Positions 14,424 through 16,138 of a DNA stretch of 64,000 nucleotides are shown one piece after another. Made by a program: the position numbers and the translations under genes. Positions within the stretch are counted from its first letter, which is position 1. Every line of letters begins with the position of its first letter. The notes under the pieces were generated by a model that searched no databases, was not told where the DNA came from, and worked only from the letters and a program-made list of their open reading frames with translations. Source of the stretch: Adhaeribacter pallidiroseus (GTDB taxonomy: Bacteria > Bacteroidota > Bacteroidia > Cytophagales > Hymenobacteraceae). The stretch is taken from positions 4,712,001 through 4,776,000 of the forward strand of contig NZ_QASA01000001.1 in NCBI RefSeq assembly GCF_003340495.1, written 5' to 3'.

Positions 14424-14512
14424 AAAGAAGAGGCGAGAGAATAGGCTCCTGGACCCTCTGGCAACCATCAGAAAAGTTGAAAGGTGCCAATTCCTATCCC
14501 AAATGGGGAAAT
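14424..14512 (+). promoter_or_regulatory. SAM riboswitch (SAM-I/SAM-IV clan)
   Basis: The leader has the conserved cores GGCAACC (14460-14466) and GGTGCCAATTCC (14482-14493), with GGCTCCTGGACC just before the first. ATAGG before the core can pair with CCTAT after it as the closing stem, and a small CCC/GGG hairpin follows. This is the aptamer layout of the S-box superfamily, which binds S-adenosylmethionine and shuts off methionine and sulfur genes. It lies upstream of metY. I see no clear T-tailed terminator right after it, so control may act on translation. Confidence 0.8.
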
Positions 14513-14527
14513 ATAAATTAATTTCAC

Positions 14528-14650
14528 ATGAAAAATCCAGTAAACCTTTCGAGGCCTGCTAATACGCCTCTTTCTGCTTTTAGATCTGTATCGCCGTTGT
14601 TTTACTGGTCAGCTGCTTCTGGTTGTTGCACGCGTTATTGTTGCCGTTAA
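14528..14650 (+). CDS. Cysteine-rich leader peptide (40 aa) between SAM riboswitch and metY
   Basis: An ATG 16 bases after the riboswitch opens a 40-codon frame that ends ...SGCCTRYCCR-stop. Two tandem cysteine pairs (residues 33-34 and 38-39, TGT TGC each time) sit immediately before the stop, followed by a T-rich tract. Position and composition suggest a leader peptide whose translation could report cysteinyl-tRNA supply to the downstream sulfhydrylase gene. There is no family match I can name, and the regulatory role is inference. Confidence 0.55.
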   Translation: MKNPVNLSRPANTPLSAFRSVSPLFYWSAASGCCTRYCCR

Positions 14651-14749
14651 GTTTTTTTAAATTTTTCTTCTTTATAGCCCGCTTGGCTCTTTAAACTTTT
14701 ACAAACAAGCATTGTATTTTCTTATATTTTACTTTTAACCATCAACCAT

Positions 14750-16138
14750 ATGTCTGCGCAAAATTTAAAATTTGAAACCTTGCAATTGCACGCGGGTCAG
14801 GAACCAGATCCGGCTACCGGTGCCCGGGCGGTACCTTTGTATCAAACTACCTCCTACGTTTTTAATAACGCCGAACACGGGGCTAACTTATTTGCTCTGA
14901 AGGAGTTCGGCAACATTTATACCCGCATTATGAACCCCACCACCGATGTGTTTGAAAAACGCATCGCAGCTTTAGAGGGTGGAGTTGCCGCTCTGGCGGT
15001 AGGTTCCGGTCAGGCCTCACAGTTTATTGCGCTTAACAATATCATGCAGGCCGGCGACAATTTTGTGAGTTCGCCTTTTTTGTACGGTGGCACTTACAAT
15101 CAATTTAAGGTTGCTTTTAAACGGATTGGCATTGAAGTACGCTTTGCCGATGGCGATAGTCCGGAAAGCTTTGAGAAATTAATTGACGATAAAACCAAAG
15201 CGCTTTACCTCGAAACCATTGGCAACCCGGGTTTTAACATTCCGGATTTTGAAGCGATTGCGGATATTGCCGAAAAGCATGAATTGCCGTTAATTGTAGA
15301 TAATACTTTTGGCGCGGGTGGTTATTTGTTTCGGCCGTTAGAACACGGCGCGCACATTGTGGTGGAATCAGCTACTAAATGGATTGGCGGCCACGGCACC
15401 AGCATTGGCGGCGTAATTATAGACGGTGGTAAATATAACTTTAACAACGGCAAGTATCCGCAATTCTCGGAGCCTGCCGAAGGCTACCACGGCTTAGTAT
15501 TTGGCGATGTTTTTGGGCCTACTGGCCCCTTTGGCAATATTCAATTTATTATCCGGGCGCGGGTAGAAGGCTTACGGGATTTTGGTCCGGCTATCAGCCC
15601 GTTTAACTCATTTCTATTATTACAAGGTCTGGAAACTTTATCGTTACGCGTAGAGCGCCACGTACAAAATGCCCTGGAACTAGCCCAATGGCTGGAGCAA
15701 CATCCGCAGGTAGAAAGCGTGAATTACCCCGGCTTACCGAGCAGCCCGTATCACCAGTTAGCTACTAAATATTTAAAAAAAGGCTTCGGTGGCGTACTTT
15801 CGTTTAACATTAAAGGCAGCAAAGAAAGCGCTACTAAATTTATTGACAACTTAAAGCTCACCAGCCATTTGGCCAACGTGGGCGATGCGAAAACGCTTAT
15901 TATTCAACCATCGGCTACTACGCACCAGCAATTATCGGAAGAAGAGCAAAAAGCAGCGGGAGTTTCGGCTACGTCTCTGCGGGTATCGGTAGGCATCGAG
16001 CACATCGATGATATTAAAGCCGACTTTGAACAAGCTTTTGCCCAAATAAACACAGGCGGAGGTTCCGGCAGTTCGGATCTTACTGATGCGGATGGTCCGG
16101 CGTCGGAAGTTACCGACAAAATAATTGAATCTGTTTAA
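14750..16138 (+). CDS. metY: O-acetylhomoserine sulfhydrylase (PLP-dependent)
   Basis: The 462-residue Cys/Met-metabolism enzyme makes homocysteine from O-acetylhomoserine and sulfide in the cytoplasm. It shows the family opening [20 protein letters not shown], the [23 protein letters not shown] segment and the PLP lysine in [10 protein letters not shown] (about 203-212). The last 30 or so residues (from about 433) form a Ser/Gly/Asp-rich tail not needed for the fold. It is the first enzyme gene after the SAM riboswitch and leader peptide, and metX and hom follow in pathway context. Confidence 0.95.

Follow-up and report, generated by a model that had tools for sequence, protein, structure and literature searches.

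What does a short reading frame that ends in cysteine codons do between a SAM-sensing riboswitch and a gene of sulfur assimilation? The question is raised by a locus in the 64-kb stretch of DNA analyzed here (the window), in which an S-box aptamer, a 40-codon ORF, and metY follow one another on the same strand. The parts of the locus and the two genes downstream are as follows.

14417-14519, + strand: SAM-I (S-box) riboswitch aptamer (Rfam RF00162, 75.9 bits, E 5.1e-16, model positions 1-108, the full model)
14505-14527, + strand: 3' strand of P1 plus spacer, which make up the A-rich translation initiation region of the leader ORF
14528-14650, + strand: Cys leader ORF of 40 codons, MKNPVNLSRPANTPLSAFRSVSPLFYWSAASGCCTRYCCR (from the ORF list; position, frame, and Cys tail found in relatives)
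14624-14629 and 14639-14644, + strand: TGT TGC pairs at codons 33-34 and 38-39, where Cys-tRNA is proposed to be sensed
14651-14749, + strand: U-rich region from the leader stop to metY
14750-16138, + strand: metY, O-acetylhomoserine sulfhydrylase, the putative regulated gene (TIGR01326, 683.3 bits, cutoff 495.1)
16386-17915, + strand: metX-like homoserine O-acetyltransferase with a C-terminal extension (TIGR01392, 358 bits, below the cutoff of 500)
18146-19399, + strand: homoserine dehydrogenase (NF004976, 328 bits, cutoff 205)

A preliminary description of this DNA had placed an S-box aptamer and then a Cys ORF before metY, and this observation is confirmed. The aptamer exceeds the RF00162 gathering score (44.4 bits) over the full length of the model and is the sole gathering-level Rfam match within the 64 kb. 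Its subtype, which was defined by comparing 85 riboswitch loci, has the 5' end GATTTATAAAGAAG and the 3' P1 strand ATATAAATT. The 40-codon frame with two TGT TGC pairs by the stop is present as described: the peptide ends in SGCCTRYCCR, and the TAA stop (14648-14650) is followed by a T-rich stretch. The distance from the aptamer to the ORF, previously given as 16 bases, is 8 nt by the Rfam match. Unlike in the RF00162 family, what follows the aptamer here is the start of a Cys leader ORF, and not a terminator or the start of the gene itself.

If the frame is a regulatory leader, it should recur in relatives. A similarity search with the 40-residue window peptide against 148 genomes gave a best non-self E value of 0.0047, and the top matches lay away from metY; the only match beside its riboswitch was in one genome (G006, E 0.084). 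Because similarity alone would miss the leader family, leaders were collected by position. Of the 148 related genomes, the 118 in which metY was matched supplied leaders, as did 80 named loci; once six duplicates were removed, 192 metY leaders remained. A profile of the aptamer found the riboswitch in 170 of these. We then scored a leader ORF where an ATG lay no more than 60 nt from the aptamer and at least three of the last 10 codons were Cys. Such an ORF occurs in 154 of the 170 distinct riboswitch-bearing leaders, whereas dinucleotide shuffling of these regions produced one in 35 of 8500 cases; with at least four Cys in the last 10 codons, the counts are 141 of 170 and 1 of 8500. The ORF starts 6-11 nt past the aptamer in 142 of the 154 (mode 7-9 nt). 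The preliminary description had staked its reading on conservation of the frame and the Cys pairs, and they do recur in these 154 leaders, with synonymous drift. In the window's own genus, all eight metY leaders have the Cys ORF, with frame, start spacing, and Cys kept. The leader of one genome of this genus (G001) is the same, letter for letter, as that of Adhaeribacter aerolatus, which makes Adhaeribacter the probable genus of the window. The riboswitch followed by a Cys ORF is therefore a module that stands before metY in many genomes.

Among the 22 metY leaders with no riboswitch match, 20 also have no Cys ORF. In the other two (L217 and L244), a Cys ORF lies at the edge of the 900-base cut, where a riboswitch would be missed. 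Conversely, 16 of the 170 riboswitch-bearing leaders have no ORF by our criterion, Spirosoma among them. In the Spirosoma leaders (L228, L240, L253, which is G145, and L270) and in G132, the riboswitch is present and the Cys run is absent. G145, L240, L270, and G132 have instead a short ORF in which CMP follows Gln or Arg (e.g., MLYYQQCMPPAKWPCRA), and none was found by the criterion in L228. These CMP leaders are possibly of a different kind.

The sulfur amino acids of the peptide are concentrated at its end. Across the 154 ORFs, Cys makes up 52.4% and Met 9.9% of the last 10 residues, compared with 0.7% and 0.8% of the body. The residue before the stop is Cys in 107 leaders, and Cys is final or one codon earlier in 143. 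An internal Met falls within the last 15 codons in 135 of the 154, where body composition would give ~12%. The longest Cys run is three, four, or five residues in 129 leaders, with run length and spacing varying, and the Cys codons are mixed (TGT 541, TGC 340). Two leaders of family f26 (L312 and L313, from G199 and G495) are Met-rich, MRMRMPMSCFSYMCA and MRMHTPMSCCCYMCA, which would fit sensing of methionine to the same degree as cysteine.

To separate the tail from the body of the peptide, pN/pS was computed in six groups from pairs with 40-97% peptide identity (3 pairs in group g1). In five of these groups, the tail and body values are 0.18 and 0.74, 0.27 and 0.62, 0.34 and 0.88, 0.18 and 0.77, and 0.10 and 0.67; the tail value of 0.18 for the window's genus comes from 3 pairs. 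The exception is group g4, in which the tail is nearly invariant in DNA and has a pN/pS of 2.24 compared with 0.73 for the body. Body values range from 0.62 to 0.88 across all six groups. A low ratio in the tail next to a drifting body indicates that selection holds the terminal sulfur amino acids, as it would in a leader peptide, and amino-acid-level selection on the Cys tail is shown in five of the six groups.

The start of the ORF is informative in another way. In the 25 bases before the 154 ORFs, position -3 is A or G in 92%, and A is found at -6, -12, and -14 in 71%, 79%, and 82%, respectively. This context matches the start signals, with no Shine-Dalgarno sequence, given for Bacteroidetes in PMC6847099. 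In the Rfam alignment, positions -12 to -14 fall within the 3' strand of P1. Furthermore, at two loci with the same aptamer subtype (L096 and L359), a structural gene starts 108 and 111 nt, respectively, from the first base of the aptamer, which is the slot usually taken by the leader ORF. Given this overlap and the structural genes found in the slot, SAM, by closing P1, would be expected to lower translation of whatever ORF starts there. The space between the aptamer and the leader ORF is too small for another expression platform.

Which genes carry the pair was examined at the 85 riboswitch loci, 45 of them from searches and 40 picked by hand among the matches listed in a way that favored genes other than metY, so that the sample is not random; two loci of one genome (L098 and L104 of G007) were excluded because of contig-edge offsets. 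Of the 44 aptamers of the UUUAUA subtype, 37 have a Cys frame behind them, as do both aptamers of a related form. By gene, the pair was found at 16 of 17 sampled metY loci, 7 of 7 cysH loci (cysH identified by NF002537, 233.7 bits), 9 of 9 loci of an ATP-grasp gene, 5 of 5 of an NhaC-like gene, and 2 of 2 of a gene for a secreted protein. Among the UUUAUA loci with no Cys frame are one metH, one metX, the two genes whose start occupies the slot, and two amino-acid transporters; at each transporter locus, a frame that starts with GTG ends in CCCWS or CCCC. None of the 39 sampled aptamers of the CUUAUC subtype is followed by a Cys ORF, and 26 of these precede metH. The pair precedes metY and cysH and was found at none of the 27 sampled metH loci; genes that take in inorganic sulfur thus carry both sensors, and metH for the most part only the one for SAM. 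This distribution supports the idea, already put forward in the preliminary description, of two sensors read together. The association of aptamer subtype with the ORF could reflect this logic, or it could reflect shared descent of paralogous leaders.

Among 40 further metY leaders from across the phylum, a Cys frame is present in 13 of the 21 from the window's order or class and in none of the 19 sampled from other classes, 15 of which have a riboswitch match. In family f24, two leaders (L293 and L297) have the Cys frame with no match to a SAM family at E ≤ 0.5, and a third (G409) has both parts, the frame starting 146 nt past the aptamer. A Cys ORF of the form MKKNNVQPDLIRLS(R/Q)KGI..TGLTSACCCCCL also stands, with no riboswitch match, in two genomes of the window's genus (L387 5054-5153 and L388 5065-5164), out of seven read at this region. 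The gene that follows it is, presumably, reductase-like, a name taken from its sequence. Aptamer alone, Cys ORF alone, and both together all occur, and the two sensors are therefore separable. In a scan for the Cys-run pattern beyond riboswitch loci, nine genomes gave 95 matches, compared with 28 for the reversed pattern. Among the 30 loci that were read, two that are one and the same place (L316 and L325) have a Cys ORF opening with ATG ahead of a gene that is not metY, another (L336) is metY, and in about half the run has no in-frame stop after it; matches outside these 30 were considered only where they lay beside a riboswitch. The spread through the class, the Met enrichment of the tail, and the overlap of P1 with ORF initiation had not been foreseen in the preliminary description.

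How might the two parts work together? The reading that we favor, and regard as probable though well short of certain, is a serial two-input sulfur switch in which SAM gates translation of a Cys (or Cys/Met) leader whose ribosome in turn sets expression of the gene downstream. With SAM bound, P1 of the aptamer would tie up the A-rich initiation region, and the leader ORF would be poorly translated. When SAM is low, ribosomes would translate the ORF and reach the codons before the stop, which are Cys-rich in the window and Cys/Met-rich in most relatives. There a shortage of charged Cys-tRNA (perhaps also of Met-tRNA) would make the ribosome pause, and an ample supply would let it run off; the position of the ribosome would decide how the RNA just past the stop folds and, with that, whether metY is expressed. 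In classical attenuators, an untranslated leader means that the gene is off. If that holds here, the gene would be off at high SAM, off at low SAM with ample cysteine, and on when both are low. Expression would then be expected mainly under joint scarcity of SAM and cysteine, a state in which the cell has to assimilate new inorganic sulfur, and such logic would make sense where cysteine and methionine interconvert. From sequence, we infer translation of the leader, control of the ORF by SAM, sensing of Cys-tRNA, and the final folding step with its sign.

For that final step, several candidate devices were considered. A scan of the + strand from 14651 to 14749 found no terminator-like sites, no hairpin was found past the stop in the window, and this region folds no better than its shuffles (z +1.42). 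Over the first 70 nt past the stop, the mean folding z is -2.31 in Mucilaginibacter, -1.49 in group g3, and -0.47 in the window's genus. The region is thus unstructured in the window and its genus, and no device for the output step is visible there. An intrinsic terminator between the leader ORF and metY was set aside as a candidate, none having been found in the window and terminator-like sites being only mildly enriched over the leaders (59 of 154, as against 144 of 616 shuffles). We likewise set aside pairing of the Cys-codon run with the region past the stop, which is weak (mean z +0.27 to -0.92) except in group g6 (-1.91). In the window, the 5' strand of P1 can form a 13-pair helix with the region past the stop (14420-14432 with 14665-14677), and this helix dominates the minimum free energy fold of the whole leader; helices of 11 and 10 pairs are found in G003 and G004. 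As a general mechanism it was rejected, its mean rank against shuffles being 0.54 and its rank the top 1 in 30 in only 6 of the 154 leaders, and it is taken here as a local peculiarity.

In Mucilaginibacter, a possible device is a hairpin that starts a few bases 3' of the stop. In 24 of 30 tails, chosen by hand in a way that favors pairing, 88.7% of cells are paired, compared with a shuffle mean of 86.8%, and the observed value was reached by 30 of 500 shuffles. Two-sided changes occur in three of the seven pairs, and the covariation score was reached by 4 of 500 shuffles. The comparative support for this hairpin is moderate. Its 5' arm would be predicted to lie beneath a ribosome that has reached the stop and to be left free by one that stalls before it.

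Other readings of the same parts must be weighed. The riboswitch and the Cys leader might act on metY as independent sensors, each sufficient by itself, with the ORF start not gated by SAM. The existence of each part without the other fits this: the riboswitch stands with no Cys ORF in 15 of the 19 sampled metY leaders from other classes, and the Cys ORF with no SAM family match in the two f24 leaders and, in two genomes, before the reductase-like gene. Where the two do occur together, however, the near-fixed distance from aptamer to ORF and the use of a P1 strand as the A-rich start signal tie them closely, and there is no space ahead of the ORF for a second platform. We consider independence unlikely. 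Another reading concerns only the window's own copy, which might be a decaying remnant whose riboswitch is active and whose leader no longer senses. This copy has four Cys in two pairs, a longest run of two, and no internal Met, where 129 of 154 relatives have runs of three to five Cys, and its region past the stop is unstructured. Against decay, the frame, the start spacing, and the Cys are kept in all eight leaders of the genus, and the genus tail shows the low pN/pS given above (from 3 pairs), so that we give this reading very little weight.

The remaining two concern the peptide itself. A nascent Cys/Met tail might stall the ribosome from within the tunnel, with a small molecule (free cysteine, sulfide, or a metal) as the trigger rather than a shortage of Cys-tRNA. 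The recurrence of Met beside the Cys run would suit such an arrest, as would the short ...CMP... tails of the Spirosoma type. Arrest peptides usually conserve residues upstream of the stall, however, and here the residues before the tail drift almost freely in all six groups, the Cys run differs in length and spacing from leader to leader, and only the Met next to the run recurs. Arrest by the nascent chain thus seems quite improbable to us, although less so than decay of the window's copy. Least credible of all is a functional small Cys-rich protein, or a UGY-repeat RNA motif, in place of a leader peptide. In favor of these stands an open frame whose position is conserved; against them, the body of the peptide is not conserved, selection is seen on the amino acids at its end, TGT and TGC both occur, and Cys is last or penultimate in nearly all leaders; moreover, a UGY motif would have no need of a reading frame. 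The window peptide has no NCBIfam match at E ≤ 1, and with no family match and no conserved body the small-protein candidate was set aside.

The serial switch can be extended to a broader proposal, which in our judgment falls just short of an even chance. Throughout the class Bacteroidia, the start of the Cys/Met leader would be the only expression platform of the riboswitch; genes for inorganic sulfur (metY, cysH, and their partners) would be on only when SAM and cysteine are both low, and genes of the methionine cycle, metH among them, would answer to SAM alone. If this is right, many Bacteroidia decide on inorganic sulfur assimilation with one stretch of RNA and no regulatory protein, a metabolite being read by an aptamer and amino-acid supply by a ribosome, in series. 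The same cassette stands before several genes, and its parts could be swapped and reported on separately. Since the aptamer and the leader ORF each occur singly at some loci and jointly at others, the logic is directly testable. It would also give functions to short ORFs beside riboswitches, which gene finders probably tend to skip.

Each part of the arrangement is known separately. In mycobacteria, polycysteine short ORFs (Canestrari et al. 2020) are reported to be cysteine-responsive attenuators (PMC9031893, PMC9094748, PMC13236596). Like the ORFs here, they have consecutive Cys codons in a short frame ahead of sulfur-related genes. They are leaderless, with an AUG that lies at the mRNA 5' end or close to it, and the passages that cite them mention no riboswitch; in contrast, the window ORF starts 111 nt past the first base of a SAM aptamer, which has to be part of the transcript and which overlaps its start signal. 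The Cys leader described here belongs to a different phylum and is probably of separate origin. The uORFC-8-2 motif before cysS in Rhodobacterales has two conserved tandem Cys codons and was proposed to act by ribosome-mediated attenuation, with a U run consistent with an intrinsic terminator (PMC8632094); the window locus has metY in place of cysS, no such terminator, and a riboswitch upstream. A Xanthomonas SAM-I riboswitch also senses uncharged initiator tRNA and acts on translation (PMC7270179); there, as far as the accessible text goes, the tRNA is bound directly via the expression platform and no leader peptide is involved, unlike the leader ORF here. The SAM-II riboswitch of Sinorhizobium metA acts at a distance, controlling an initiation site that precedes the start in use (PMC9373788), but it involves an in-frame second start and another aptamer class, and the portion available mentions no Cys codons. 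Within the same phylum, there are hints of leader-peptide attenuation in Flavobacterium (PMC9723704) and Bacteroides (PMC7366714), with short ORFs in the 5' leaders of amino-acid genes; the relevant passages name neither cysteine, nor a SAM riboswitch, nor the pairing of the two.

Measured against what characterizes a Cys attenuator, a short ORF with its regulatory codons at the end and a gene of the matching pathway behind it was found in 154 of 170 metY leaders and at 7 of 7 cysH loci, and selection on the regulatory amino acids and not on the rest was found in five groups and not in g4. We recognized no description of a SAM riboswitch in series with a Cys leader in the open-access literature, a search that left subscription papers and preprints mostly outside its scope and is no proof of novelty.

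Some further observations concern the neighboring genes. The metX-like gene shares the strand of metY and is possibly on the same transcript. Its protein has 509 residues, and the NCBIfam and Pfam matches stop near residue 340, leaving ~165 C-terminal residues unmatched. The gap between metY and metX (16139-16215) contains repeated stretches of gcaagttgcaagttacaagttg and aacttgcaacctgtaacttgcaacc that form, by eye, an imperfect inverted repeat. The window's genome has a second SAM riboswitch, upstream of metH. In the same genome, at a locus outside the window (L386, G000:C1:4680380-4691000), metH appears as two ORFs of 902 and 447 residues, whereas in six relatives it is one ORF of 1225-1234 residues. 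Finally, in four metH leaders (L350, L354, L356, and L360), the 5' strand of P1 is CTTATCAAGAA, and its complement TTCTTGATAAG, or nearly so, can be seen by eye downstream, before the gene, which suggests that these leaders have a translational platform different from the metY one.
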